Below are positions 31,082-49,300 of a stretch of 64,000 nucleotides of DNA, piece by piece. Source of the stretch: Marvinbryantia formatexigens DSM 14469 (lineage in GTDB: Bacteria; Bacillota; Clostridia; Lachnospirales; Lachnospiraceae); contig NZ_CP102268.1 of NCBI RefSeq assembly GCF_025148285.1, forward strand, positions 1,848,001-1,912,000. The letters are read 5' to 3'. A program made the translations under genes and the position numbers. Numbering within the stretch: position 1 is the stretch's first letter; each line of letters begins with the position of its first letter. The notes under the pieces were generated by a model. It was not told the origin of the DNA. It saw only the letters and a list, made by a program, of their open reading frames with translations, and did no database searches.

Positions 31082-32557
31082 ATTTCAATCCACGCTCCCG
31101 CGAGGGGAGCGACGCGTAGTTTCCGGAGACTGGTCCGGGACGTGGGAATTTCAATCCGCGCTCCCGCGAGGGGAGCGACGCGACAGGAAGCAAAGAGCGC
31201 AAGCGACACAGCAATTTCAATCCGCGCTCCCGCGAGGGGAGCGACACCTGTTTGACGACGCGACCGCGGAAGTAAAAACTATTTCAATCCACGCTCCCGC
31301 GAGGGGAGCGACATGGGCGTTACCGTTGTAAATCAGTGGACAGAGCATTTCAATCCACGCTCCCGCGAGGGGAGCGACGGCTCAGTACCCTAACCCATTG
31401 TGGTGGAGCGCACAATTTCAATCCACGCTCCCGCGAGGGGAGCGACAGATTAATGGACGGTATCTTGATGTACGCATGATTTCAATCCACGCTCCCGCGA
31501 GGGGAGCGACAACCGAGCAAGGCTCATATTACTGTGCAAATACATTTCAATCCACGCTCCCGCGAGGGGAGCGACGATGTATCTGTTGGCGTGCGTGTTG
31601 CCGCCGCGATTTCAATCCACGCTCCCGCGAGGGGAGCGACACCGCCCGGAAAATCCATATGCCGCCGGTCATGGATTTCAATCCACGCTCCCGCGAGGGG
31701 AGCGACCGTCTTGCAACTCTGGCAAACGCCACAGCTGATATTTCAATCCACGCTCCCGCGAGGGGAGCGACCGGGCAATCGCCGGAGCATGTGGTTGTTT
31801 TTATATTTCAATCCACGCTCCCGCGAGGGGAGCGACGAAAGTGCTTATTACTTATGGGCAGTGTTGGCAATTTCAATCCACGCTCCCGCGAGGGGAGCGA
31901 CTTGTCTGCGCCTTATAAATATCAGCGTCTTGTCATTTCAATCCACGCTCCCGCGAGGGGAGCGACAACAAATTCATCAAAGAGCATCCATGTAGCGTCT
32001 ATTTCAATCCACGCTCCCGCGAGGGGAGCGACATTAATAAGTTGCGCCCCGGTTAAAATTTAAGGGATTTCAATCCACGCTCCCGCGAGGGGAGCGACGA
32101 TTTACACGTGTGTTAATTACTGCACCTACAACAATTTCAATCCACGCTCCCGCGAGGGGAGCGACCCCACTGTTGTTTCCTCCTTTGCAGTGTTATTAAT
32201 TTCAATCCACGCTCCCGCGAGGGGAGCGACACAGATGCAGAGGGTGAAGCATCTGGAAGTAATATTTCAATCCACGCTCCCGCGAGGGGAGCGACTGAAA
32301 CTCTCAAATTATCACCCTCTTAAATACTATTTCAATCCACGCTCCCGCGAGGGGAGCGACAATCACCACTCATTTTCTGTACCTTATATTTTTATTTCAA
32401 TCCACGCTCCCGCGAGGGGAGCGACTATAGTCACATCATCACGACTTCTAACTATTGTAATTTCAATCCACGCTCCCGCGAGGGGAGCGACCAATGCACC
32501 TGTATATGTTCTATCATCTGATGCAATTTCAATCCACGCTCCCGCGAGGGGAGCGAC
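31082..32557 (-). CRISPR. Type I-C CRISPR array, 23 repeats and 22 spacers
   Basis: Twenty-three 32-bp repeats were counted, starting at 31082, 31148, 31214, 31281 and so on to 32526. Spacers are 33-36 bp. Read on the minus strand the repeat begins GTCGCTCCCC and ends GTGGATTGAAAT, the type I-C repeat, with a CGCTCCC/GGGAGCG hairpin. Transcription is inferred to run right to left, in the same direction as the cas genes: the leader side is next to cas2, and the far end carries variant repeats (numbers 2 and 3 from the left have a substitution giving CGGATTGAAAT). No spacer was recognised as matching this window. Confidence 0.98.
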
Positions 32558-32734
32558 AGCAAATTCGTACATTTTTTTATCATATCTTCACATGATTTCA
32601 GCGAATTTGTCCATTTTTCTAAAAATAAATCTTATTCATGGTATATCCAGGCGCCAATCCGCATCTTTTTAGGCTATTTTCCAAGTGCGAATCTCCCTGC
32701 ATTCTTGTGTGTGCTTCGCATTCGCACAAGCAGG
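32558..32734 (-). promoter_or_regulatory. Leader of the CRISPR array
   Basis: 177 bp of AT-rich sequence between cas2 and the first repeat, with a hairpin formed by GTGCGAAT…ATTCGCAC (near 32683-32727) that could also end the cas transcript. The array promoter should lie here. Confidence 0.65.
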
Positions 32735-33036: not shown

Positions 33037-34068
33037 TCACTTCCAGAGAAACGGTGGATATCCATCCAGGTCGCCTCTCAGATATCTGGCAAGCAGCATC
33101 GCCTGGACATATGGAACTATTCCCCATTCCACTTTTTCATTCAAAAAGGGATGCATAAGAGTTTCCTTTTTCTTATTTTGCCATTCAGTCAGCAATATTT
33201 TTCTTGTTTCGTCGTCCATTAAAACTGCGCCGTTTTCTTTAGCCTTAAAACCTTTTTCAGTGACCATCCTTTTATTTATCAATGATACAACAAATCGGTC
33301 TGCCAGGACAGGTCTCAACTCTTCCACCAGATCCAATGCCAGTGACGCTCTGCCTGGACGTTCTGTGTGAAAGCATCCCACATAAGGGTCTAATCCAACT
33401 GTTTCCAATGCAGAAGTAACCATATTTGTCAGCAGCGTATATACGAATGACAGCAATGCATTCACATTATCCATAGGCGGGCGCCTGCTCCGGCCATGAA
33501 ATGAGAAATCCTTTTTCTGCTGAAGAATCAATTCATCAAACACACCGAAATAAACTTTTGCCGCTTCTCCTTCAAATCCCCGTAATTGCTCAGTCGACTG
33601 ACAGTCACGCACCAGACTTAACGAATTTTTTAAATTCTCCGATGCTGCTTTCAATTTTTCAACATCCACCTGCATACTGTGATCTCTGGTTGCCCGCTCC
33701 AGCACCCATCTGGCATTATAAATCTTTCCTGTAATACAGTTTTTCGCAACCTCCAGGCTTTTCTTTTCATCCAGAAAGCTTCTGTACTGCTGTTCTCTCA
33801 GAATCACATTGCCCTTTATTTTTCCGCTTACTCTCGCCAGAAACTTCCCCTGCGGCGTCAGATAACACAGCGAAATATTTCGCTCTGCACAGGCTCCCAT
33901 CAGCGCAGGGCTTGTCCCTCGATATCCGAACGAGACAATTCCTTCCAGATTATGCAATGGAAGCCTGCCTATCTCACGTTCCTTATCCAATACAACAACA
34001 TTCTCTCCATCCAAAGACAGATAACTATCTTCTGATGTTACATATAAGGTATTCATCAATTTTTTCAT
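33037..34068 (-). CDS. cas1: CRISPR-associated integrase Cas1, type I-C
   Basis: 343-residue Cas1: MKKLMNTLYVTSEDSYLSLDGENVVV is the usual type I-C start. An N-terminal beta domain is followed by the helical catalytic domain with FEGEAAKVYFGVFDEL (metal Glu), CFHTERPGRASLALDLVEELRP (His/Asp/Glu) and NKRMV. It overlaps cas4 by 4 bp. Integrates prespacers together with Cas2; Cas4 selects and trims PAM-containing ends. Confidence 0.97.
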   Translation of the reverse strand: MKKLMNTLYVTSEDSYLSLDGENVVVLDKEREIGRLPLHNLEGIVSFGYRGTSPALMGACAERNISLCYLTPQGKFLARVSGKIKGNVILREQQYRSFLDEKKSLEVAKNCITGKIYNARWVLERATRDHSMQVDVEKLKAASENLKNSLSLVRDCQSTEQLRGFEGEAAKVYFGVFDELILQQKKDFSFHGRSRRPPMDNVNALLSFVYTLLTNMVTSALETVGLDPYVGCFHTERPGRASLALDLVEELRPVLADRFVVSLINKRMVTEKGFKAKENGAVLMDDETRKILLTEWQNKKKETLMHPFLNEKVEWGIVPYVQAMLLARYLRGDLDGYPPFLWK

Positions 34069-34727
34069 TCCATGTCTCCCAATGCCTGCATAAGATATTT
34101 CTCAACAGAAACCGCCTTTCCCATTCCAGGCATACATATATCTTTTAAAGAACATGCGCTGCAGCGTTTATTATATTTCACCTGCGGAGTATATTTTCTG
34201 TCATAATATTGATGCATCTCTGTCGTTATAACTGCCACCTGTTTCCTTAGTTCTGCCGTTATCTTAACCGGTTCACGCCTCCTCGTTTCTCCGTAAAAAA
34301 GCGCACCTTCTGGAATATCAGCAGAAAACATTTCCTCCAGGCACATAGCCTGTGCTGTCAGTTGCAAAACATCTTCTTCCGACTGCTTTGGTTTTCCTTT
34401 TTTATATTCTATCGGATAAATCTCATAAAAGCCTCTGTGTCCATGTAGCTTCACGCCATCACTGCTTTTATGGAATTCTACCACATCACATTCCCCGCTG
34501 ATTCCAAGCGTCCGCGAAGCAACCGGAAGCGCCCTAGTAATCAATATATCCCTTCTCTTTTCTGCCAGATACGGGTCATGCACCTTCTTATGCATCAGTT
34601 CTCCTGCAACAGTATGTACATTTTCCGCCCATTGCTGTTCAATATGAATCAATGCCCACTGACGTCTGCAAAACTGAAAATGCTGGATTCCGGAAAGCAT
34701 CAGATATTCGTCTTCCTTATATTCCAT
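34065..34727 (-). CDS. cas4: CRISPR-associated exonuclease Cas4
   Basis: 220-residue RecB-like Fe-S nuclease. The N-terminal cysteine is in FQFCRRQWALIHIEQQW; the nuclease core is ISGECDVVEF and YPIEYKKGKPKQSEED; the C-terminal cluster cysteines are in RCSACSLKDIC. It trims prespacers and defines the PAM during adaptation. It overlaps cas1 by 4 bp and cas7 by 1 base (TAATG). Confidence 0.96.
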   Translation of the reverse strand: MEYKEDEYLMLSGIQHFQFCRRQWALIHIEQQWAENVHTVAGELMHKKVHDPYLAEKRRDILITRALPVASRTLGISGECDVVEFHKSSDGVKLHGHRGFYEIYPIEYKKGKPKQSEEDVLQLTAQAMCLEEMFSADIPEGALFYGETRRREPVKITAELRKQVAVITTEMHQYYDRKYTPQVKYNKRCSACSLKDICMPGMGKAVSVEKYLMQALGDME

Positions 34728-35617
34728 TATATTTTCCTTTGCATTTCAACGGTATCCGGTATCATTTCTTCATGGATATCCACCACATAATCCTGGTATT
34801 TTCTCGGATATACCACCTCATCTTTTCTTCTTACTTCAATCGCATCAAACAACCGGTATGCAGGGCAATCCCCTAATTCTTTGCTGTGCTTAAATACAAT
34901 CAGCTCCCGGACAGCCATCTTTCCTCTTGCTGCCGAATGATCATGTTCAAACATATTAATAATCGCTTCCCACAACAGCTCCAGGTCATCTTCCGAAAAA
35001 CCAGTGACTTTTCTCGCCAGATTTGCCGAAATATAGCCTTCCGCCCGGTACAGTGCATACGGAACAATATTTTTCCGCCCCATCTCCGTGCTCTTATTTT
35101 CCGCATCTTTTTCCGTGGTAATCGCAACTCTGGTGATTGTCACCTCCTGGCTGATAATCGGGTCAATACTTCTGGCAAAGCCCAATTGCACCGGTCCTCT
35201 CACCTGCCCGCAGTTTAAGGAAGCTTTCACAAAAGTAGTCATAACCGCTCCAAAGGTCCGGATATCATAAAAATTCCGGCACATAAAATCTCTGATTTTT
35301 ATATCTGCTTCCGGGTCCTTCTTTTTCAGCTCCTTCACCGTCTTGTCGTCGACGCCAAGATATTCATATGCCTTATTATCACTCCTGTTAAGCGGAACAT
35401 CTTCTCTGATATAAATGCCATATCCCGCCTCATCTTCTTTTACCGTTTCCACATAATTTCTGATTTTACGCTTCAGACATACGTCTGTAACCAGTCCAAA
35501 ACCAGTCTCCGGATCAATTCTTGGCATGTTACCCGCGTCTGGATCTCCATTCGGATTTCCATTTTCCACATCAAATAAAACTACAAACTCATATCTATTT
35601 TTAATTACTTCACTCAT
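34727..35617 (-). CDS. cas7: Type I-C Cascade backbone protein Cas7 (Csd2)
   Basis: 296-residue crRNA-binding backbone subunit. It starts MSEVIKNRYEFVVLFDVENGNPNGDPDAG, the Cas7/Csd2 signature. RNA-recognition fold with the thumb region around ADIKIRDFMCRNFYDIRTFGAVM. GGAGGAAG precedes the start, immediately after the cas8c stop. Several copies coat the crRNA spacer. Confidence 0.97.
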   Translation of the reverse strand: MSEVIKNRYEFVVLFDVENGNPNGDPDAGNMPRIDPETGFGLVTDVCLKRKIRNYVETVKEDEAGYGIYIREDVPLNRSDNKAYEYLGVDDKTVKELKKKDPEADIKIRDFMCRNFYDIRTFGAVMTTFVKASLNCGQVRGPVQLGFARSIDPIISQEVTITRVAITTEKDAENKSTEMGRKNIVPYALYRAEGYISANLARKVTGFSEDDLELLWEAIINMFEHDHSAARGKMAVRELIVFKHSKELGDCPAYRLFDAIEVRRKDEVVYPRKYQDYVVDIHEEMIPDTVEMQRKI

Positions 35618-38010
<2,393 letters not shown>

Positions 38011-38026: not shown

Positions 38027-38152
38027 TTATAATACAACGCCCTCTTTATAACATGCCGCTATATAATCCCGTGGCTGAAAATCCTGCTTAATCCCCTTCT
38101 TTCGTATTTCCGGATATTCTACGATCTGTCTGCTTCCATGATATAATATCAT
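38027..38152 (-). CDS. 41-residue DUF3990-like small protein at the head of the cas operon
   Basis: A short ORF starting MILYHGSRQIVEYPEIRKKG and ending in TAA at 38027-38029. AAGGAG precedes the ATG at ideal spacing, and the promoter at 38198-38225 places it 38 nt from the transcript start, ahead of cas5. The first 25 residues closely resemble the beginning of DUF3990 proteins (MILYHGSnxiVexPeIrxxkxxkDF), a family related to ADP-ribosyltransferase folds and usually 150-170 residues long. The rest does not match. It is either a truncated relic, kept because it tunes translation of cas5, or a deliberate micro-toxin. The coding call is supported by ribosome site and position. Confidence 0.6.
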   Translation of the reverse strand: MILYHGSRQIVEYPEIRKKGIKQDFQPRDYIAACYKEGVVL

Positions 38153-38173: not shown

Positions 38174-38191
38174 TTCATTTATGGTTATTAT
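38174..38191 (+). promoter_or_regulatory. Putative Cascade target (TTC PAM plus 15-nt protospacer seed) at the cas start site
   Basis: TTC (38174-38176) followed by ATTTATGGTTATTAT (38177-38191). This matches the pseudo-spacer at 38316-38330 (ATTTACGGTTATTAT) at 14 of 15 positions, the mismatch being position 6. It overlaps the expected start of the cas5 operon transcript (about 38191). Confidence 0.75.
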
Positions 38192-38197
38192 AGATAC

Positions 38198-38225
38198 ATC
38201 ATAGCATCTATCATAAAAATGTCAA
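38198..38225 (-). promoter_or_regulatory. Promoter of the cas5-8c-7-4-1-2 operon
   Basis: On the minus strand, TTGACA (38225-38220) and TATGAT (38203-38198) are 16 bp apart, with a transcript start expected near 38191. A bound Cascade would cover the -10 box and start site. Confidence 0.75.
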
Positions 38226-38233
38226 TTAGAACT

Positions 38234-38262
38234 TTTACTTTTTTCAAACTTTATGGTATAGT
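38234..38262 (+). promoter_or_regulatory. Promoter of the crRNA-like RNA
   Basis: TTTACT (38234-38239), 17 bp, TATAGT (38257-38262) on the plus strand, divergent from the cas5 promoter and immediately next to it. Confidence 0.55.
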
Positions 38263-38268
38263 GAAAAC

Positions 38269-38375
38269 GTCTTTTGGCTATTTTTTTCACAAAATAGTCA
38301 CTTGCGGATTGAAATATTTACGGTTATTATGTTATGTCAATGCGAGAGGGGATGCACAACCATGCATCCCCTCTC
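38269..38375 (+). ncRNA. Putative crRNA-like guide RNA for Cascade (CreR/CreA type)
   Basis: Predicted 107-nt plus-strand RNA. A 9-bp hairpin GGCTATTTT/AAAATAGTC (38276-38299) stands in for the repeat stem. Then ACTTGCGGATTGAAAT ends at 38315; its last 10 nt equal the end of the type I-C repeat, and the eleventh (C for T) is the same variant found in array repeats 2 and 3. A pseudo-spacer follows from 38316 (ATTTACGGTTATTATG…). The RNA would end in a strong hairpin GAGAGGGGATGC…GCATCCCCTCTC (38344-38375), which may protect its 3' end. The seed matches the neighbouring cas promoter with a TTC PAM. Partial pairing fits binding without cleavage. Such guides are known for other type I and type V systems; the example here is inferred from sequence alone. 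Confidence 0.72.
38344..38375. terminator. Hairpin after cas3 and at the end of the guide RNA
   Basis: Perfect 12-bp stem with an 8-nt loop, between the cas3 stop (38381) and the guide-RNA pseudo-spacer. No strong T-run follows in either direction, so it may act as an RNA end-stabiliser as much as a terminator. Confidence 0.6.
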
Positions 38376-38380
38376 CTGCT

Positions 38381-40528
38381 TTACCATATTACAGCCTGTC
38401 CATATTCCACACCCAGAGTCAGCCCCATATCCTCCGTATAGGCTTCATTATCTCTCAGTACAAAATAGTCCTGCTTCATATCTTCTGATATTTCTTCCAG
38501 CATCCCTGCCGCATACATTTTCTGAAAATCATTTTCATGCAGGTTCACGCAATATTGCCCCATCTTTCTCACCAAGCCTTTCGTAAACCCTTTCTGTCTT
38601 AATTCTTCGTAAATCTCCGCAGCTTCTCCTTCTCTGGTTATCAGAATCGTTTTTGTATTTTCTTCAATAATGGTAAATTCTTTACTCACTGTAGCAAATT
38701 GAAAATTACTCTTTTTGAATTTATCCATAATTCTCTTTTTGTCGAGATTGTCTCCTTTAAAATGATACAGCATTTTAAAGTATCGGTTAATTGTATCCAG
38801 ACTGTCCGGATTCCTTTTATCATAAAGAAGACTTTCTGTTATTTCCGTCTGCTGTCTCTGTCCCGGTACATCCTCACGCCCTTCCAGACTGAAAATATAT
38901 GTGAAGCATGTATCCGCATTCCGTTTTCCTTCCCGGTTGCATCTTCCTGCTGCCTGGATAATGGAATCCACTCCCGTCATCTGCCGGTAAACAGTCTGAA
39001 AATCCAGGTCCACTCCGGCTTCAACAAGACTAGTAGATACCACAATGCATCTTTCCTGTTTCTTTAAACGCTCCCTTATTTTATCAAGTATAGCTTTTCT
39101 GTGGACAGGATACATCGTTGTGGAAAGGTGATACACGCCTTTCCCTTTTACCTGCTGGTAAATCTTCTGCGCACGCTTTCTGGTATTTAAAATACACAGT
39201 GCCTGGTGCTCCGTCTCAAGCCTATGCACCAGCTCATCTTCCGAAATCCGCTCCAGATTATGGATGGATACGCGTTTGAAAAAACGGAACTGTTCTTCCA
39301 TCCGCGGGCATAATTCTATCGATGCGATATCGATATCCTCTGATAATATATTTTTCAGTGCCGGCTGCGTTGCCGTACACAACACAATACTGCTGCGATA
39401 ATAACGCAGTAATTGCTCCATCGCCGCTATACAGGGTTTCAGATAATCGTTCGGAAGCATTTGTGCCTCATCAAAAATAATCACACTGTTCGCCATATTA
39501 TGCAGCTTTCTGCATCTGGATGACTTATTTGAAAAGAGTGATTCAAAAAACTGCACATTGGTTGTAACAATAACCGGTTTATCCCAATTCTCAGCCGCAA
39601 GCTGCATAGGTCTTAATTCTTCATCCAATTCATAATCTATATTGCAATGATTTTCCAGTACATTTTCCCTTCCCAGGATTTCAGCAAATACCTTTGCATT
39701 CTGCTCGATAATACTTGTATATGGAATCACATAAATGACCCGTTCCATATGATGTTTTTCTGCGTGCTTCAGAGCAAATGCAAGTGACGCAATCGTTTTT
39801 CCTCCCCCGGTAGGAACCGTTAATCTGAAAAGCCCCTTATCTGCTTCCCCCATTTCCATACAATGCTTCAGAATTTCTGTTCTTCTTCCATTGACAGTGC
39901 TTAAATCTTCCTGTTTAAGCCAGTCTGAAATATGCTTCTCAAGCCTGTCACACAATACTGCAATCGTCTCTCCCTGCTCTCTGACATGCTCTTTACGATT
40001 CATAAAGGATTCGGTATCAAGATAATCTGCATCGACAAGACACGAATACAGCATCCGGATAAACATACTGAAGAAAAAATCTATATTCTCTGATTTAACC
40101 GGCTGAAACGGAGGATTTCCCAGCATTGGTATCTTAATTTCTTCTGCATACGCTTCAAAATCTTCCAGCTTTTTCCTCATTCTGCCTGTCATTGTCCCGT
40201 CCGTACTGATATCCCCGGAACCTCCGGTATCCGGCAGACCGGCATGATGTCCGGCTATGCAGTAGCTTAAAAACTGGTACATTCCCTTCTTCTCCCAGCA
40301 GACTTTTGCTCCCGCTGTTGCATGGTCTACTCTTTGTTCACTTCCACGGATTCTTTGCTGAAACTTCCGCGAATACTTCCCAATATCATGCAGAAGCCCG
40401 CAGCAGTATCCGGCGTCATAAGCGCCAAAGCTTTCCGCAAATTTCCCGCAAAGGACTGCCGTATTTTCCAGATGTTCTTTTACCGTCTGCTCATCGCCAT
40501 ATTTATTAATGTGAGCCAGATATCTCAT
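38381..40528 (-). CDS. cas3: CRISPR-associated helicase-nuclease Cas3
   Basis: 715-residue Cas3. The N-terminal HD nuclease has LLHDIGK (H47, D48) and HHAG (93-96). The SF2 helicase has Walker A PTGGGKT (239-245), DEAQ (353-356), CTATQPAL, and motif VI QAAGRCNREG. It is recruited by target-bound Cascade and degrades DNA. It is translated together with the upstream 344-residue protein (4-bp overlap), and separated from cas5 by 373 bp holding the guide RNA and the cas5 promoter, so nuclease and Cascade are independently expressed. Confidence 0.96.
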   Translation of the reverse strand: MRYLAHINKYGDEQTVKEHLENTAVLCGKFAESFGAYDAGYCCGLLHDIGKYSRKFQQRIRGSEQRVDHATAGAKVCWEKKGMYQFLSYCIAGHHAGLPDTGGSGDISTDGTMTGRMRKKLEDFEAYAEEIKIPMLGNPPFQPVKSENIDFFFSMFIRMLYSCLVDADYLDTESFMNRKEHVREQGETIAVLCDRLEKHISDWLKQEDLSTVNGRRTEILKHCMEMGEADKGLFRLTVPTGGGKTIASLAFALKHAEKHHMERVIYVIPYTSIIEQNAKVFAEILGRENVLENHCNIDYELDEELRPMQLAAENWDKPVIVTTNVQFFESLFSNKSSRCRKLHNMANSVIIFDEAQMLPNDYLKPCIAAMEQLLRYYRSSIVLCTATQPALKNILSEDIDIASIELCPRMEEQFRFFKRVSIHNLERISEDELVHRLETEHQALCILNTRKRAQKIYQQVKGKGVYHLSTTMYPVHRKAILDKIRERLKKQERCIVVSTSLVEAGVDLDFQTVYRQMTGVDSIIQAAGRCNREGKRNADTCFTYIFSLEGREDVPGQRQQTEITESLLYDKRNPDSLDTINRYFKMLYHFKGDNLDKKRIMDKFKKSNFQFATVSKEFTIIEENTKTILITREGEAAEIYEELRQKGFTKGLVRKMGQYCVNLHENDFQKMYAAGMLEEISEDMKQDYFVLRDNEAYTEDMGLTLGVEYGQAVIW

Positions 40529-41559
40529 ATGTTTTCACCCGGACCTTTCTCATCTGCCGCAGCATTTTCCTCTGTTTTCACGGTCATTTTGTTTTTCCTT
40601 TTCTCATAGGATCTTATCAGACCCTCCCGCGGTCTGATTTTTTTACTGATTCCATATTCATATACCTTTATCCACAGCTCTTCTTCCTCCATCCAGTCCA
40701 TTAGCTGCAGCGCACAGTACATTGTAATCTCCCTGCTTGAATTCTGCGCATGCTTAAAGTAAAATTTTATTCCTTCCTCCGGCTCTGCCAGCTCAACAGA
40801 AACCATCAGAATTACTGCGCAAAGCTCGTTTATTTCCTCCTCCAGCTCATACCACCGGTTATTATTTTTACTCGTGTCCTTCCATTTTTTCTCCCGGTCG
40901 TCTGTCAGCTTTTTTGCTTCTTCTATCGCTATCTGCTTTACATCGCTCGTCTTTAATTCTGAAAGCAGAACCATTTCCTGCATCGTATGCAGAGCTTCCC
41001 GGCTGAGACCTCCCGAAACGGCAAGTGAAATCAGACTGGAAATGTTTTCTCTGGTATATCCCGCCGCAAACGTCTTTTTTACCAGAAGTGCAAATAAATC
41101 CGGCTGGCTCCATCCAATAGAGCGGAAGGCATCATCCGTCGAAAACAGGTAATAATTGCATGCTTCGCAAATCAGCTTGTACAGCTCCGTGAGAAGCTTC
41201 ACCGCTCTGTCGTAATTTTCACTTTCCACCAGAATCTTTTCCAGCTCTTTTATAAAATTTTTTACCATAAAGCGCCATTTCGGGCGCTGGCTTTTCGGAA
41301 TCACGCGGTTCGGCGCAAAATAATTCTGTGCGTAGGCATTCTCAATGAAATCTTCAATCTCTTGTTCCAGTTTTTCAAAACTGACTGCACTTCCTTTTTT
41401 CTTTTTTTCCGCTTCTCTTCCTTCCAGGATGTCAATAATAACTGGATCTATTTCTTCCTTCTGGCTTTTCGTCAGCTGTTTGTAGCTTTCAGCAAATGCC
41501 TTTTCTACATAGCTTCTGTCTGCTTTTCCCAACAGGCTGCGCAATTCCTGTATTTTCAT
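40525..41559 (-). CDS. Unknown protein cotranscribed with cas3
   Basis: I do not recognise this 344-residue, mostly helical, charged protein. The start MKIQELRSLLGKADRSYVEKAF at 41559 follows GAGGAG. There is no signal peptide, membrane segment or P-loop. The N-terminus (LRSLLGKADRSYVEKAFAESYKQLTKSQKEEIDPVI) looks like a small helical domain; the middle has long helices (VSFEKLEQEIEDFIENAYAQNYFAPNRVIPKSQRPKWRFMVKNFIKEL), and the tail is acidic and low in complexity. It overlaps cas3 by 4 bp and must be coexpressed with it. It is not one of the standard type I-C genes; a Cas3 partner or regulator is a reasonable guess. Confidence 0.75.
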   Translation of the reverse strand: MKIQELRSLLGKADRSYVEKAFAESYKQLTKSQKEEIDPVIIDILEGREAEKKKKGSAVSFEKLEQEIEDFIENAYAQNYFAPNRVIPKSQRPKWRFMVKNFIKELEKILVESENYDRAVKLLTELYKLICEACNYYLFSTDDAFRSIGWSQPDLFALLVKKTFAAGYTRENISSLISLAVSGGLSREALHTMQEMVLLSELKTSDVKQIAIEEAKKLTDDREKKWKDTSKNNNRWYELEEEINELCAVILMVSVELAEPEEGIKFYFKHAQNSSREITMYCALQLMDWMEEEELWIKVYEYGISKKIRPREGLIRSYEKRKNKMTVKTEENAAADEKGPGENI

Positions 41560-41659
41560 TATCTGACTCCTCTCTCCTCCAACGCATCTTATTGTTCCTG
41601 TTCCCGGCATCTATCCCCGCAATTTTTCGCTATCTATACAGTCCTTATTGTAATAACAT

Positions 41660-41728: not shown

Positions 41729-41767
41729 CTAAATATGCCGTCCTTTTCTTTGCTTCGTAAGCACATC
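41729..41767 (-). pseudogene. 3' remnant of a second AlbA_2-type gene
   Basis: The minus strand encodes DVLTKQRKGRHI then a stop, matching the end (GLLTKQRKGRHIYYILTA) of the protein encoded at 42402-44141. It is the downstream edge of a decayed tandem duplication. Confidence 0.65.
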
Positions 41768-41865
41768 TTTCAACTGCTATTTTTATTATATTCTTTCAAA
41801 ATCTATTTGTACACGATAATATTGTAATTTATTTCGTTTGCAATAATACTAAAAAACGGAGAATT

Positions 41866-42321
41866 TCACACTCTCCGCTTCTTATCCATCATCTTACAAA
41901 ACACCACCGCCACCGCTGTGCTCACCGCCGTAGCCAGAATTCCCGGTCCGACGATTGCCGTGGGGTTCACACTGCCATACTGTGCCCGATAGGCTATAAT
42001 ATTCACTGGAATAAGCTGCAGCGACGAGATATTCAGTATCAGAAACGTACACATCTCATTGCTGGCAACTCCTGGCGGCATCCCGCCTCTTTCCCACCTG
42101 CAGCGACCATTCTTTTTATGTGCTGCACTGCCTTGTGCCACTCCGCTTTGTACCACACTGCTTTGTGCCATATCAGCCGACTTTTTCTCCCATCCGTTAT
42201 GTATTATATCTGCCTCTGTCTTTCCGGCAGCGTCCCTCCTTCTCTCCTCCTCCAGTTTCTCCAGCTCCTCCATCGCTTTCAGTCCCGCCGGTGTCGCTGC
42301 CCAGCCAAGCCCCAGCACATT
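41866..42321 (-). pseudogene. Duplicated 3' part of spmA
   Basis: Almost identical to 44300-44757: the segment ANVLGLGWAATPAGLKAMEELEKLEEERRRDAAGK… to the stop, and about 90 bp beyond it. The 5' part (residues 1-97 of SpmA) is missing; similarity breaks at 42321 after GCACATT. A short ORF extends it upstream (MFFSPNLTP…) but that start is accidental. Confidence 0.85.
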
Positions 42322-42364: not shown

Positions 42365-42402
42365 ACTTCAACTTGAACAATAAATACTTCAACTTGAACA
42401 AT
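42365..42402. repeat. Two 17-bp iterons, 21-bp period
   Basis: ACTTCAACTTGAACAAT at 42365-42381 and again at 42386-42402, spaced by two helical turns, overlapping the AlbA_2 stop codon. They resemble the TTGAA iterons at 41660-41725 and 44165-44209. Confidence 0.65.
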
Positions 42403-44141
42403 CATGCTGTCAGTATATAATAAATATGCCGTCCTTTTCTTTGCTTTGTAAGCAAGCCTCTTTTTATCATTCTGTTTAATGCAACAGATGCCCCCTGTAA
42501 TGACGAAATTGCAGTTATATCAACCACCTGTTGTGAAGTAATCATACCATTTGCTTTAACATAATTATAAATTTTCTGATCTGTTTCATTCAAAATCATC
42601 TCTGGTACAGTCATATCTCGTATTGTCATTTGCTCCGGCTGTATTACATATTCATTGTTAATACGATAGGTTGTCCACCGCCCCTTCCTCTCTGGAATCA
42701 ACATTCCATACTCAACTAAATGATATAAGTGTTTTCCTACTTCAGTCGAATGTTCTCCAAGCACTGTCTGCAAACGGCTATTTGATACTTTTCCCTCAAG
42801 ATATGCCGTTGCCAGAATAATTTGTTCCTTTGATATCAAATGCTGATAATTAATCCCAAATTTTTCAACTAAATATTCTGTACATTCTTTCGGCATTAAC
42901 GATACCGTCCACAGTTTTAATTCCACACAATGCAATTCCTGATCATCGTATAGGTCTGGCTGTCTCCATTTCTCTTCACCCCATGCTTTCAGAATTGCTG
43001 GAAAACCTGAACCAATATTATCACCCAATCCGATCATCCGAAACATATTTTGAATTTTAGGATTTCTTGCAACAGAATGTCCTCCCTCATATATTGCCTG
43101 CACCGGTAATTTCAGATTTCCAGGATTTGAAAAGAAAAATCCATTTTCCTGCTTTACTACCTTTAAAATTCCGGTACTAAAATAGTCCGAATGAATAACC
43201 ATATTAATCATAGCTTCCCGTATCGCTTTATGGATTGCCGTATCATCCTGACGTACCATCCCTTCCAGACGAAAAGGTCTTTTCACATCACTGACAAGTT
43301 TTGGCAATACTCTTTTCACAAAATTATAAAGATTATTTTCCCAGCTTCCATCATAAGTCAAACGATCACTCCAACGGCTTTCTCCTATCAAATTTGTCTG
43401 GTCAATATAATCCATACGAATATTATCGAAACGCTCTCTGACAGACAACCCTTTTCCAAACATTAATAAACCGGCTACTGTAAGTCCTTCCTGTTTTGTT
43501 ATCCGATTAACCGCATACCCACCTAAATTTCTCAAAAATTCTTTATCATCTATTCCATTCCATACATGTTCTGGATTATGCAATTCGTACTCGATTCTGT
43601 ATGCTTTAAGAGTATTTGGATCAATATCGTCCATTGTAAAGCCTTCCAAAAGAGAACCATCAATTCCAAAATCAGAAGCATCCCTAAGCATTGCTTTTAC
43701 TTCTTCTTCCGTACAGTGATAATCTCCTTCATGATTTCTCTTATAGCTTCCTTTCAGAGGATTTTCATTTATATATACAGGACGATATCGATAATCTGCT
43801 TGCGGAACATCTATCCATATAATATTACATCCATTTATTTGGCAGATTCCAACATTATCGTCTAATAAAAGATTTGTACTAACCTTTTTACTGTTTATTG
43901 TATCCCAAAAACTCTTTATCATCTTTCCCGGATTACGCAAATTACAAAAAGTAAATCTTTTTTCTAATTCTGTTTCTTTTAAATGTTCTTCTATCCCAAG
44001 CAAAATCACCCCGCCACTGGAATTTGCAAATGACGAATACGTTTCCCAAATTGCGTTTGGAATACCACCTTCTGCTTTTTTACACTCAAGAGTAAGCCGC
44101 TCCCCATATTTTAATAAATCTAATATTTCGTTGCTCGTCAT
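42402..44141 (-). CDS. AlbA_2 (Schlafen-like) domain ATP-binding/regulatory protein
   Basis: 579-residue protein of the COG2865 type. The start MTSNEILDLLKYGERLTLECKKAEGG at 44141 follows AAGGAG. The N-terminal AlbA_2 domain (residues 1-150; ECKKAEGGIPNAIWETYSSFANSSGGVILLGIEE) is shared with Schlafen-like putative DNA-binding regulators. The central HATPase_c_4-type part is HKAIREAMINMVIHSDYFSTGILKV and IQNMFRMIGLGDNIGSGFPAI. C-terminal winged helices follow (VSNSRLQTVLGEHSTEVGKHLYHLV; GMITSQQVVDITAISSLQGASVALNRMIKRGLL). It lies inside a duplicated spmA region and is flanked by TTGAA iterons that it may bind. Confidence 0.88.
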   Translation of the reverse strand: MTSNEILDLLKYGERLTLECKKAEGGIPNAIWETYSSFANSSGGVILLGIEEHLKETELEKRFTFCNLRNPGKMIKSFWDTINSKKVSTNLLLDDNVGICQINGCNIIWIDVPQADYRYRPVYINENPLKGSYKRNHEGDYHCTEEEVKAMLRDASDFGIDGSLLEGFTMDDIDPNTLKAYRIEYELHNPEHVWNGIDDKEFLRNLGGYAVNRITKQEGLTVAGLLMFGKGLSVRERFDNIRMDYIDQTNLIGESRWSDRLTYDGSWENNLYNFVKRVLPKLVSDVKRPFRLEGMVRQDDTAIHKAIREAMINMVIHSDYFSTGILKVVKQENGFFFSNPGNLKLPVQAIYEGGHSVARNPKIQNMFRMIGLGDNIGSGFPAILKAWGEEKWRQPDLYDDQELHCVELKLWTVSLMPKECTEYLVEKFGINYQHLISKEQIILATAYLEGKVSNSRLQTVLGEHSTEVGKHLYHLVEYGMLIPERKGRWTTYRINNEYVIQPEQMTIRDMTVPEMILNETDQKIYNYVKANGMITSQQVVDITAISSLQGASVALNRMIKRGLLTKQRKGRHIYYILTA

Positions 44142-44164
44142 CCTATACTCCTTCATTTATACAA

Positions 44165-44209
44165 CTTATATTTCAACAATACTTCAATTTATCTTTCCAT
44201 ATTTCAACT
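44165..44209. repeat. TTGAA iterons upstream of the AlbA_2 gene
   Basis: On the minus strand AGTTGAAATATGGA (44209-44196), then ATTGAAGTATTGTTGAAATATAAG, about 25-60 bp before the start codon. Likely self-regulation sites. Confidence 0.55.
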
Positions 44210-44299
44210 ATTATTTCTATTATAATCTTTCAGAATTTATTTGTACACGATAATATTGTAATTTATTTCGTTTGCAGTAATACTAAAAAACGGAGAATT

Positions 44300-45046
44300 T
44301 CACACTCTCCGCTTCTTATCCATCATCTTACAAAACACCACCGCCACCGCTGTGCTCACCGCCGTAGCCAGAATTCCCGGTCCGACGATTGCCGTGGGGT
44401 TCACACTGCCATACTGCGCCCGATAGGCTATAATATTCACTGGAATAAGCTGCAGCGACGAGATATTCAGTATCAGAAACGTACACATCTCATTGCTGGC
44501 AACTCCTGGCGGCATCCCGCCTCTTTCCCACCTGCAGCGGCCATTCTTTTTATGTGCTGTACTGCCTTGTACCACTCCGCTTTGTACCACACTGCTTTGT
44601 GCCATATCAGCCGATTTTTTCTCCCATCCGTTATGTATTATATCTGCCTCTGTCTTTCCGGCAGCGTCCCTTCTTCTCTCCTCCTCCAGTTTCTCCAGCT
44701 CCTCCATCGCTTTCAGTCCCGCCGGTGTCGCTGCCCAGCCAAGCCCCAGCACATTCGCAATAATATTCATACTGATTTGCTGATTTGCCGGATGGTCTGA
44801 CGGAATGCGTGGAAACATGAAACGGATGAAGGGAGCAATCGCTCTGGTCATGCCCGCGACGATGCCGCTCTCCTCCGCTATTTTCATAAGTCCTGTCCAA
44901 AGCGACATCACGCCCGCCATTGTAATGCAAAGCGTCACAGCCTCTTTTGCCGAAGACAACGCCGCATCCGCCACCTCCTGCATGGTTCCGTTCATTGCTC
45001 CGTATAAAATTCCGACAACAATCATCCCGCCCCACAAAAAATTCAT
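44300..45046 (-). CDS. spmA: Spore maturation protein A with an internal insertion
   Basis: 248-residue membrane protein of the nucleoside-recognition (Gate) family, needed in Bacillus for spore core dehydration. It starts MNFLWGGMIVVGILYGAMNGTMQEVADAALSSA, and contains LWTGLMKIAEESGIV, FPRIPSDHPANQQISMNIIANVLGLGWAATPAGLKAME and ASNEMCTFLILNISSLQLIP, all SpmA-like. Residues 121-183 are a hydrophilic, repeat-containing insertion (SSVVQSGVVQGS) absent from standard SpmA, which is about 190-200 residues. spmB, normally next, is not in this window; the AlbA_2 gene and a partial spmA copy follow instead. The 3' part is duplicated at 41866-42321. Confidence 0.88.
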   Translation of the reverse strand: MNFLWGGMIVVGILYGAMNGTMQEVADAALSSAKEAVTLCITMAGVMSLWTGLMKIAEESGIVAGMTRAIAPFIRFMFPRIPSDHPANQQISMNIIANVLGLGWAATPAGLKAMEELEKLEEERRRDAAGKTEADIIHNGWEKKSADMAQSSVVQSGVVQGSTAHKKNGRCRWERGGMPPGVASNEMCTFLILNISSLQLIPVNIIAYRAQYGSVNPTAIVGPGILATAVSTAVAVVFCKMMDKKRRV

Positions 45047-45114: not shown

Positions 45115-46335
45115 TCAGTTTTCCCTCTCCAGATAATAACTCACAATTTCCTGTTCCAGCTTTACATTTTCCTTAAGCATATACTCCACAGTATCTTTAT
45201 AAGCCTCTTTTTCCTGCAATGTTTTCAGCCGCCTCCTGTCGGACGGCTTCAGCTTCTGCAGGCAGGCGGCAAACCGTTCGTCCTGAAGTTGTCCGACAGA
45301 CATATATTTCATTTTAAACGGTATTTCTGTTATGCGGCAGAGATGTTCGTGAATAAAGAAGCCTCCCGCATCGATATCCCCAAAGTGACTCCAGGAAAGC
45401 CCCGGATTATCCCGCCAGACCTTTTTGATAAAGTCCCTCTGATAGCGTGTGGCATAGCCGCCGAGATAAAACACCACCATATTTCCTGCCGGACAGCGCA
45501 GATAAGACGTCTTATTTTCCACCGTCAAAAATTCCTGCGCCCCGGTTTCCACCCGCTCTATTTCCGGCACCTCATCTGCAGCAAATTCAATTCCATTCTC
45601 CAGCGCGCCAACCTCCAGCACCTGCCCCTTCCGGTAAATGGTACAGTTTCCTTTCATGCACAGGCGCTGCGCCTCCTTCCGGATATGATACTGCTCCAGA
45701 ATTTCATCCGGCAGTTCTCCTTCGCCGCACGGCTTTTTCAGATAATTGCGCAGCAGACGGCATACTGTATCCATCGTATTTTCTTCAAAATATTTCGAAG
45801 AACCATAAATCAGCATGGAAGCTTCCCGGACATATAGCTCCTGCTTATTGTTTTCTACAAATATCAGTGCCTTCAGAACGTCTTCCTTCTGCGCATAATT
45901 TTTCGGCAGGCGCCGCTGCTTCAGGTCCTCCTGCATCCTCGCACATTCCATTGCCGCTGCCGGGGAGCATTGCCCATATTTCTCAATAAGGTTCCTTACA
46001 TATGCTAGCTTTGCTTCCTTTGTCTCATATCCGCAAGTATCATTCAGGTACTGTTCAACCTCTGTTATACGGTCATCGTTTAAATAAACCGCCGCTATCT
46101 CATACCCAAACCCCTTCATCTCATACGTGACAAAGCCACGGCGCTCACACGCCCGGACCGCCTCGCCAATCGCTTCTATTATCGCAAAGTCACCATCATT
46201 ATCACAGTATTTTGTATACAACTGTGACGGTTTTATCTGTGTGCGTCGCTTTATCCGGTTTGTCCCGGCATCCTTTTTACTCTTTCGATATTTCTCCGTC
46301 AGCAGCTTCAGAAGCTGCCCCTCATAATCCATCAT
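45115..46335 (-). CDS. jetD: Wadjet nuclease subunit JetD
   Basis: Toprim-domain nuclease (DUF2220-like) of 406 residues that cuts plasmid DNA extruded by JetABC. Toprim residues are visible in LTVENKTSYLRC (catalytic Glu) and HFGDIDAGGFFI (Asp-x-Asp). The N-terminal DNA-binding arm contains KYRKSKKDAGTNRIKRRTQIKPSQL. The start MMDYEGQLLKLL at 46335 is preferred (AGGTG before it); an ATG at 46377 would overlap jetC by 26 bp but has no site. Last gene of jetABCD. Confidence 0.9.
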   Translation of the reverse strand: MMDYEGQLLKLLTEKYRKSKKDAGTNRIKRRTQIKPSQLYTKYCDNDGDFAIIEAIGEAVRACERRGFVTYEMKGFGYEIAAVYLNDDRITEVEQYLNDTCGYETKEAKLAYVRNLIEKYGQCSPAAAMECARMQEDLKQRRLPKNYAQKEDVLKALIFVENNKQELYVREASMLIYGSSKYFEENTMDTVCRLLRNYLKKPCGEGELPDEILEQYHIRKEAQRLCMKGNCTIYRKGQVLEVGALENGIEFAADEVPEIERVETGAQEFLTVENKTSYLRCPAGNMVVFYLGGYATRYQRDFIKKVWRDNPGLSWSHFGDIDAGGFFIHEHLCRITEIPFKMKYMSVGQLQDERFAACLQKLKPSDRRRLKTLQEKEAYKDTVEYMLKENVKLEQEIVSYYLEREN

Positions 46336-46351
46336 TTCCCCGCACCTGTCC

Positions 46352-49300
46352 TCAAATGCTTTCTCCGCCGCTGCCATGCCGCTTCAGACCAGCATACTTC
46401 TTATCATCGTGAAACTGTATGATTCCAAGCTGCATATTGTCCGCGCTGACACGAAGCACCGGCAATATTACCTCCGATTCGTTTCCAATCGTCTCGGTCT
46501 TATCCGGCGCACAGAAAATCACCTGCAGATTCTGGCTTCTCATAAATTCCAGCATCACTTTTACATTTCCCGGATCCATCTTGGCAAATGGCTCGTCAAT
46601 AAAAATCAACCGTGTCGAATTCACTTTTTCATTATATATCATAAGCAGTGCGGAAAGCAGAATCAGCAGATACGGTATCTGCACCTCCGCTCCCGAATTA
46701 TACCCGGTCTGCCTGGACAATTTCGCATGATTAAGAATCTGATTGGTAATCAGTATCTCATACGTCATATAGTTCCGGTAATCAGCAAACCGTTCGATTG
46801 CTTCCACATTATTTTTTGCGATAATGCGGTTAATGATATTTTTCATGTCGTTCTCCAGCTCCTGCTCCTCCTCACTGGAATACGAGCTGAACATGCCCAG
46901 AACCATCTGCCCGCCGTCCCCGCCGAACTGCTCTCTCTCGTTTAGATACTTGGCATATTCAATAATTCTGGCGTAATCCGACATGTCCTTTACAAAATGC
47001 ACATCAAACTGATATTTTGCAGAAAACTGCAGACGTGCAAGCTCCTGGTTAATCGCTTTCAAGTCCTCCATTGCCTTGTTACAGGAACGCAGAATCGTTA
47101 AAACAAACTCGTTTTTAAAGATACTCTCGTACCGCCTTGTCTGTTCTTCCAGCTTCTGTCGGATTTCCTGCAGGTCATCCATCCAGATTTTCGCTTTGCG
47201 CGCTTCATAAACACTGCGGTATTCCAGCCCCATCGGCAACCAGCTCTCCTCCGTTCTTTTTCCATTGTACAGTCCCTGCTGCACCGCAATATCCTTCTCG
47301 TATTCCGCAATTTTTTCCCGGACACGTCTCCTGGTAAGCGGCGCGCTCAGACCGCCCGCTCCCTTTTCCCCGTTTGCCAGGTACCGGTCATACGCCTGCG
47401 TCGCCTTCTGCACCGCGCTGTACTGCGTAATCTGGTATTCTTCAAACTGTTTCTCATCCTCGGCAAGCTTTTCTTCCCTGCTTCCCAGGCTGCTCTCCAG
47501 AATCTGAAGCTGCGATGTCATCTGACTTTTTATATCAAGCTGCCTGGTTCTTTCACGCCGGATTGCCCCCAGCTCATCCTGCAGCTTTCCCCGCAGCTGG
47601 TTCATTTCTACAAATTCCCGGTTGTTTTTCTGGGCGTCTTTCAGCTTCTTCAGATTCTCCTCAGACCCTCGCGCCTTATCCGCCGCCGTCTGATACGCCT
47701 GGTAAGCATCGTACTGATACCCCGAAAAAAGCTCCAGATTCATTTTCAGGCGCTCCTTCACAGCCCGCTGCGCTTCCTGCCTCTCAAGCAATTCCTTTTT
47801 CTGAGCCTTTAGCTGCTCTGTTTCTTTTTCTGCCCGCTGCTGATTCAGCTTAAACGTTTCCTGTCCGAGATAATAATACTGTATACGGTCGAAACGCAGA
47901 AAATAACCATCCATAGCAACCGCCACACGTCCTTCCGCGGAAATGGCGTTTTCATAATTTTTTACTTCATCTATCGCGACTGCCCGCATATGCCCAAGCT
48001 GATAGTCAAAATACTTACGCGCTACCGGATTCTTTATCGTCAAAAACCGCGCAGCAGAATTATCCAGCGGCGTTACCTGTTTTTTCATTAAAAGCTTTGT
48101 GTTAAACAAGTGCGCGTATCTGTTCTTCGAACGGTTCAGCACCTCATCGGCAATATCATAATACTCCGGTTCCACCAGTATGGTATAACGGCGTCTGCCA
48201 AGAAACGCTTCCACCGCGTTACGCCAGCGCTCATCCGTCAGACCGATTACGTACTCACAGGCAAACTTCGCCTCCGAAGCTATTTTCCGGCTCGCAAACT
48301 CTTTGTTAATTTCTTCTTTCAGCTTTACATAATCCGGAATCTGACTGTAGGCATTTCTGTTTTTCCGGCAGGCTTCCAGAATCTCTATCTGCACTTGAAT
48401 CTTTTTCTCAATTTCCGCCTTCAGAACTCCAAGCCCGGATAATTCTCCGACCGCCTGCTCATATGCCTCCGTAATCTGCTCCTTCAGCCGCAGGACCGCC
48501 TCTTCTTTTTCCGCCGCAGTATACTCTCCCGACGTAAGAGAAGCCAGAATGTGCTTTTTCTTCACCTCCGTACGTTTCTCCATCAGAATGTGCATCATCC
48601 CGTTCACCTGCGTCTGAAAGCTGTCCAACCGTTTTTTCTCCGCCATCAGCAGCTTCTTCTCTTTTTCCAGTGCACGAAAAACCTCTTCCTCCTGCCGTAT
48701 CAGTTTCATACAGTCAAGCTGGTCAAGACTGCTCTCCACTTCACGGAGTCTCTTTTGCTGCTCTTCTTCCCGCCCGGAAAGCGTCTCCAGAAGCTTTTCC
48801 GCTTCCTCCTTACGGCTCTGGGAAAGACGTACATCCTGCCGCAGACGTTCCATCTCCTCCCGCAGCTCTCTGATACTCTTGTATACAATTTTTATGTCAT
48901 CTATCAGCAGCAGATTCTTCTGCGCATCATAACCGTCAAGCAGCTTCAGTATCTCCTCCAGCTCCGCAATTTCCATCTGGATAGCCGTAAATGTGCCATT
49001 CAGCCGCTCGATATTTTCCTTCGCTTCAATTAACTTCGTAAAATCCACCGGTCTGTTTTCCAGAACGCTTTCACGTATAAACTGGTCAATTTTTGCGTCC
49101 GGGTCGTAAGACATAATTCCCCGCAGCTTGCGCAGATATGTCGCTGTCTGTGAGCCGGTCAGCTTCAGACCGGTCATCTGTGTAAATTTTCCGATACCGG
49201 CTTCCTTATTCAGCAATGTAACCCCATATTTCTTCTGGAACCGCCTGGCATCGTACGGTTTCTTTTTCTTGTTCTCCTCATACAGATGCTCTGTTTCCTC

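Follow-up and report, generated by a model that had tools for sequence, protein, structure and literature searches.

The 64,000 bp of Marvinbryantia formatexigens DSM 14469 DNA analysed here (contig NZ_CP102268.1, positions 1,848,001 to 1,912,000; below called the window, in whose numbering all coordinates are given) contain a type I-C CRISPR-Cas locus, and this report concerns a putative guide RNA, resembling a CRISPR RNA (crRNA), that lies in the gap between its cas3 and cas5c genes on the opposite strand. Type I-C is a very common subtype, and its crRNAs are produced by Cas5c, not by Cas6. The cas genes occupy the minus strand in the order cas3-cas5c-cas8c-cas7-cas4-cas1-cas2, those from cas3 to cas1 being recognised by NCBIfam models and cas2 by the position of its open reading frame (ORF) only. 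Upstream of the gap is cas3 (38381-40528; TIGR01587 and TIGR01596), and downstream of it are cas5c (37345-38007; TIGR01876, E 2.6e-57), which is the first cas gene of the operon that the guide would target and encodes the predicted processor of both crRNAs and guide, cas8c/csd1 (35618-37363), cas7/csd2 (34727-35617), and cas4 with cas1c (33037-34727). A repeat scan placed an array of 23 repeats, GTCGCTCCCCTCGCGGGAGCGTGGATTGAAAT, which end in GTGGATTGAAAT, at 31082-32580 on the minus strand; it would be a competing source of crRNAs.

The putative guide RNA and its target

Read directly, the plus strand of the gap carries a promoter-like site, a hairpin, the ten bases GGATTGAAAT and then the guide nucleotides. 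All 23 array repeats, on the minus strand, have GGATTGAAAT as their 3' end, and the plus-strand copy in the gap (38306-38315) is the 24th in the window and the only one outside the array, where chance would give 0.39 matches per 64 kb. The base 5' of it is C, as in the array repeats at 31148 and 31214, where most repeats have T; the crRNA 5' handle CGGATTGAAAT (38305-38315, plus strand) is thus the same as that of two array repeats and agrees with the usual repeat handle at 10 of 11 nucleotides (nt). RNA folding places a hairpin with a 10 bp stem and a 6-nt loop just before the handle (38275-38300, plus strand); it belongs to a degenerate pseudo-repeat and is a predicted Cas5c substrate, and many related loci have compact stems of differing sequence at the same side of the handle. 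A consensus scan, which found five promoter-like sites against 2.2 expected from shuffling, predicts the guide promoter at 38234-38262 on the plus strand (TTTACT-N17-TATAGT), and by inspection promoters of relatives are similarly placed before the handle. The guide proper, or pseudo-spacer (38316-38343, plus strand), is followed, where a second repeat would stand, by a folded hairpin with a 13 bp stem (38344-38375, plus strand) that is likely the 3' end of the transcript. The predicted RNA, 38268-38378, folds with -38.3 kcal/mol (z -5.9). Its architecture is therefore one degenerate repeat plus an unrelated hairpin and not a two-repeat mini-CRISPR. Searches with the gap sequence gave no match in Rfam and none in plasmids.

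The first 15 nt of the guide, ATTTACGGTTATTAT (38316-38330, plus strand), match the plus-strand protospacer ATTTATGGTTATTAT (38177-38191) save for one mismatch at position 6, so that nt 1-5, 7-11 and 13-15 all match, and the match stops after nt 15. Immediately before the protospacer is TTC (38174-38176, plus strand), which direct reading and the statistics of relatives (below) identify as its protospacer-adjacent motif (PAM). The protospacer falls on the predicted start of an operon made up of a short scar ORF (discussed below) and cas5-cas8c-cas7-cas4-cas1-cas2, whose promoter the consensus scan places at 38198-38225 on the minus strand (TTGACA-N16-TATGAT), with an alternative -10 TATAAT at 38187-38192. 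When the guide was held fixed and the target side was dinucleotide-shuffled, only 1 of 20,000 shuffles reached 13 consecutive paired positions after TTC, and TTC followed by 13 of 13 pairing positions occurs at a single site in the 4.58-Mb genome. A second genomic site, at 1220987, has TTC and 11 seed nt; it lies in a relaxase-like coding region, its matching ends at nt 13, and we regard it as a chance occurrence.

Pairing and placement in related loci

We collected 189 cas5c loci (numbered L below), from 80 named genome contigs and from whole genomes sampled across the window's family, class and phylum, and within 600 bp of each lone handle looked for TTC-flanked targets matching at 12 or more of 15 pairing positions. 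Seventy handles lie outside arrays in these loci, and a lone handle with a TTC target is present in 52 of the 189, representing 43 distinct spacers; shuffled handles, scanned in the same way, yielded 584 sites, none of them with a target. With the PAM filter removed, 41 distinct spacers have a target matching at 13 or more of 15 positions, and TTC precedes 40 of these 41. Where TTC and the first five bases were required, the frequency of matches is 0.19 at position 6, 0.85-0.94 at 7-11, 0.25 at 12, 0.60-0.83 at 13-17 and 0.23 at 18, and is near background beyond, while control pairs match at 0.26-0.33 at all positions. When similar spacers are compared, counting over locus pairs that are not independent of one another, the target mirrors 603 of the 720 differences at pairing positions and only 6 of the 252 at positions 6 and 12; L025 and L032, for example, differ at spacer positions 1, 4 and 11, and the target changes at all three. 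On comparative sequence, the pairing profile and the mirrored changes are the signature of Cascade pairing under selection, and only guided pairing that leaves every sixth base free accounts for them.

These results bear on most of what the original prediction, made from the window's letters and open reading frames without database searches, had proposed. Its coordinates, the 10 of 11 handle bases, the TTC, the 15-nt match save position 6 and the end of that match are correct base for base, and the promoter and hairpin it named were recovered by the promoter scan and the fold. That position 6 stays unpaired as in type I Cascade agrees with the low match there and with the 6-nt periodicity in relatives, TTC as the type I-C PAM with the unfiltered targets, and the location of the target over the cas5-operon start with the predicted promoters of window and relatives alike. 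It had also set beforehand, as a check, whether seed and target covary or drift independently in related type I-C gaps, and they covary strongly.

Targets in the relatives have two placements, both on predicted cas (or toxin-cas) promoters. In the one that includes the window, guide and protospacer share a strand; measured along the cas strand, the distance from protospacer nt 1 to the beginning of the cas -10 is typically 22-28 nt, which puts the bound site over the predicted start. In the other it is the cas strand that carries the protospacer, with the -10 typically starting 43-58 nt further along, which would place the bound site on the -35 region. In L033 and L037 a two-gene cassette (see below) directly follows cas3, and the guide is found upstream of cas3 instead. 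The two placements and this shift indicate that the guide tracks the operon promoter. Guides are present in the window's own family, in other families of the class (L142, L145, L157, L160, L167) and in the phylum (L176, L185), so by this comparison the guide is not peculiar to the window's locus and is widespread in Clostridia. Five type I-C loci on plasmids of Desulfovibrio, Zymomonas, Leptolinea, Brevibacillus and Parabacteroides, with cas3-cas5 spacings of about 12 to 105 bp, have no guide. The cas3-cas5 gap of L064 contains a transposase-like ORF in antisense orientation, and no guide was detected at that locus.

The DUF3990 cassette and its scar

In 28 of 85 distinct related loci two extra genes stand between cas3 and cas5 under the same guided promoter. 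The product of the first is a DUF3990 protein (Pfam E 3.7e-50), a family that belongs to the ADP-ribosyltransferase clan (PMC7955679); its structural model has a predicted local distance difference test score (pLDDT) of 89.5, and the best structural matches, which are modest (E 0.005-0.1), are the RES toxin of the Xre-RES toxin-antitoxin pair and PARP catalytic domains. The second gene encodes a helical partner protein of no clear family, with at best a weak DUF3791 match, and a fold search with it found no relative. Both proteins strongly match the models of the PADLOC candidate defence pair PDC-M10A/B. We note that the M. formatexigens genome itself has standalone pairs of DUF3990 and partner genes (L131 and L132), the latter between an hsdS-like and an integrase-like gene, and that L200 (MT836695.1), which is labelled Bacteriophage sp., is a bacterial type I-C fragment with cas3, the DUF3990 cassette and cas5.

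The window has no intact cassette. It has a 41-amino acid (aa) ORF (38027-38152, minus strand) in which, by alignment to the ORFs of relatives, the N-terminus of DUF3990 is fused in frame to the C-terminus of the partner, with 72% identity to residues 1-25 of ORF1 and 94% to residues 130-146 of ORF2; its match to PF13151 (E 1.4e-5) is below the cut-off. As judged from these alignments, this ORF is the scar of an internal deletion of the two-gene cassette. Cassette decay has happened more than once, as L044 retains the partner only, both genes are truncated in L067, and L070 has lost the guide and has a frameshift close to the start of its DUF3990 gene. A well-matched guide without a cassette is found in at least 15 distinct loci on several branches of the cas5 tree, which indicates that the guide is independent of the cassette.

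Proposed function and known systems

We consider it very probable, on comparative sequence, that the element is a one-repeat, CreR-like autorepressor of type I-C Cascade encoded opposite the cas genes. Cas5c would recognise the pseudo-repeat hairpin and trim the RNA to the GGATTGAAAT handle, and the trimmed guide would load into Cascade like an ordinary crRNA and pair through its first ~15 nt with the TTC-flanked site over the start of the cas5-8c-7-4-1-2 promoter. Because pairing this short (10-15 bp) would allow Cascade to bind without licensing Cas3 cutting, bound Cascade would block transcription of its own genes, a negative feedback that would ease once array crRNAs or anti-CRISPRs diverted Cascade elsewhere. 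That such a complex may block a promoter without Cas3 cutting is suggested by homology with CreA and CreR: CreA requires exactly nt 1-5 and 7-11 behind a TTC PAM and tolerates changes at 6 and 12, and one-repeat CreA forms ending in a terminator exist (PMC8501985). Promoter repression from a TTC site has been obtained with an engineered type I-C array of a single repeat (PMC10865793), so the anatomy of the guide is workable. In many relatives the promoter first drives the DUF3990 cassette, and the guide would also silence this toxin-like module; in the window's genome the cassette was deleted down to the 41-aa scar and the guide retained.

The anatomy, PAM, periodicity, covariation, position on predicted promoters, cassette and scar are observed. 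The original prediction of a dedicated Cascade-repressing guide is strongly supported by this comparative sequence, while the transcription of the guide, its processing by Cas5c, Cascade binding, repression, release and the cassette's toxicity are things that we infer. Several particulars tell against an autorepressor: the promoters are consensus predictions; the 3' hairpin has no clear U-tract and the terminator scan did not score it as an intrinsic terminator; the pseudo-repeat stem differs from the array repeat, being AT-rich and set off from the handle by 4 nt, which makes its cleavage by Cas5c uncertain; and the locus pairs behind the co-change counts are, as said, not independent. In L105, the nearest relative by cas5 (88%), guide and target have only 7 paired positions, at a shifted TTC, so the guide-target match is not universal; this divergence is possibly a case of target turnover.

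Three other explanations were weighed. A handle beside an AT-rich gap could resemble a guide, and single solo repeats exist, so the element might be a degenerate leftover of a CRISPR repeat or of an old array, its spacer matching the gap by coincidence; the controls (no target at 584 shuffled-handle sites, and one shuffle in 20,000 for the window alone) together with the periodic pairing and covariation already contradict this, and we give it the least credence of all. Scarcely more credible is the view that the element blocks Cascade assembly, as an anti-CRISPR RNA of the Racr type or as the remnant of a mobile element. Racrs are recognised by their solitary repeat unit, and one of type I-C is known (PMC10651486), but they are carried by mobile elements and inhibit the host CRISPR system, whereas this element is chromosomal; dozens of species have it within the cas locus, at the promoter of the operon, with a spacer that covaries with that promoter; the pattern of a compact-hairpin pseudo-repeat had no match in viral contigs.

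A more serious contender, though still an unlikely one, is that the guide acts above all as the CreA-like antitoxin of the DUF3990 cassette, and that in this genome, which has lost the cassette, it is a relic that represses cas only incidentally. The cassette heads the guided operon in those 28 of 85 loci, the guide-less L070 has a frameshifted DUF3990 gene, and the window holds a cassette scar. Against this stand the cassette-free loci with well-matched guides on several branches, among which the sister lineage L027/L036 keeps a 13-position match, as well as the intact match in the window and L035, where the DUF3990 gene is intact and no guide was detected. 
We lean slightly towards a broader picture in which gut Clostridia with type I-C systems govern Cascade through a family of guides that have one repeat and are processed by Cas5c, and in which the guide in many species also holds down an ADP-ribosyltransferase-type toxin pair ahead of cas5; loss of Cascade or its inhibition by anti-CRISPRs would free fresh Cascade and toxin, and the window's lineage would have dropped the toxin pair and kept the governor.

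Among the closest known systems is CreR, reported for types I-B, I-E and V-A (PMC13131331, PMC12737573) and responsive to crRNA levels and anti-CRISPRs (PMC12737573). Both are crRNA-like, originate from a degenerate repeat outside the array but inside the cas locus, have limited complementarity to a cas promoter next to a correct PAM and predicted autorepression, and the seed covaries with its target; the guide described here differs in belonging to type I-C, with Cas5c in place of Cas6, and in having one pseudo-repeat and a 3' hairpin rather than a two-repeat mini-CRISPR. We call it CreR-like because the two-repeat form is lacking and one-repeat forms are documented for the related CreA. CreA of CreTA (PMC8501985, PMC9458426) shares the pairing of nt 1-5 and 7-11 with 6 and 12 free, the TTC PAM and, in Haloarcula hispanica, a one-repeat form, but CreA represses an RNA toxin, whereas this guide targets the cas (or DUF3990-cas) promoter; between target and cas5 no RNA toxin was recognised, only the 41-aa scar ORF, though sequence cannot exclude RNA toxins. 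In CrePA (PMC12737573) the guide represses a protein toxin, and relatives of the window resemble it in that the promoter of a toxin-like protein gene at the CRISPR locus is matched by a crRNA-like guide; that architecture is seen in L025, L032 and L061, while the window has only the scar. CreP is typically a KilA-N protein, unlike the cassette proteins, which are a DUF3990 protein with the ADP-ribosyltransferase fold and a helical partner and are apparently co-transcribed with cas. The PDC-M10A/B pair, which both cassette proteins match, stands alone elsewhere (e.g. L132), whereas in the relatives it heads a cas operon under putative guide control. Cas9 is reportedly autoregulated by a long-form trans-activating CRISPR RNA (tracrRNA), in work of Workman in 2021 that PMC10651486 cites. 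There too a natural guide reprograms a CRISPR effector to repress its own promoter, but the system is type II, with a single-guide tracrRNA of unrelated RNA anatomy.

The suggestion that a type I-C guide opposite cas3-cas5 may be new stands to the extent that our literature search, which covered the CreR literature only in part, found no type I-C case described. Self-targeting crRNA-like regulators are of a known kind, and what appears to be new is the type I-C subtype, the one-repeat Cas5c form and the DUF3990 cargo. The roughly 43 distinct natural guide-target pairs are a ready test set, and they measure the minimal pairing that selection keeps for binding without cutting (nt 1-5, 7-11 and 13-17). 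The DUF3990 link would explain why a candidate defence pair heads many cas operons and offers a second kind of CRISPR-guarded protein cargo.

Immediately upstream of cas3, and overlapping its start with its own end, is a gene for a 361-aa protein (40525-41610) that has no match in Pfam, NCBIfam or PADLOC. A JetD-like gene (Wadjet; Pfam E 1e-18) at 45115-46377, close to the CRISPR locus, suggests a defence island. Between these a 300-bp stretch occurs twice (41764-42063 and 44198-44497; 97% identical), on either side of a Schlafen AlbA_2 gene (42402-44156). A Gate-domain gene (nucleoside recognition, SpmA-like) at 44300-45046 has the second copy as its 3' part, so the end of this gene was apparently duplicated by the insert.
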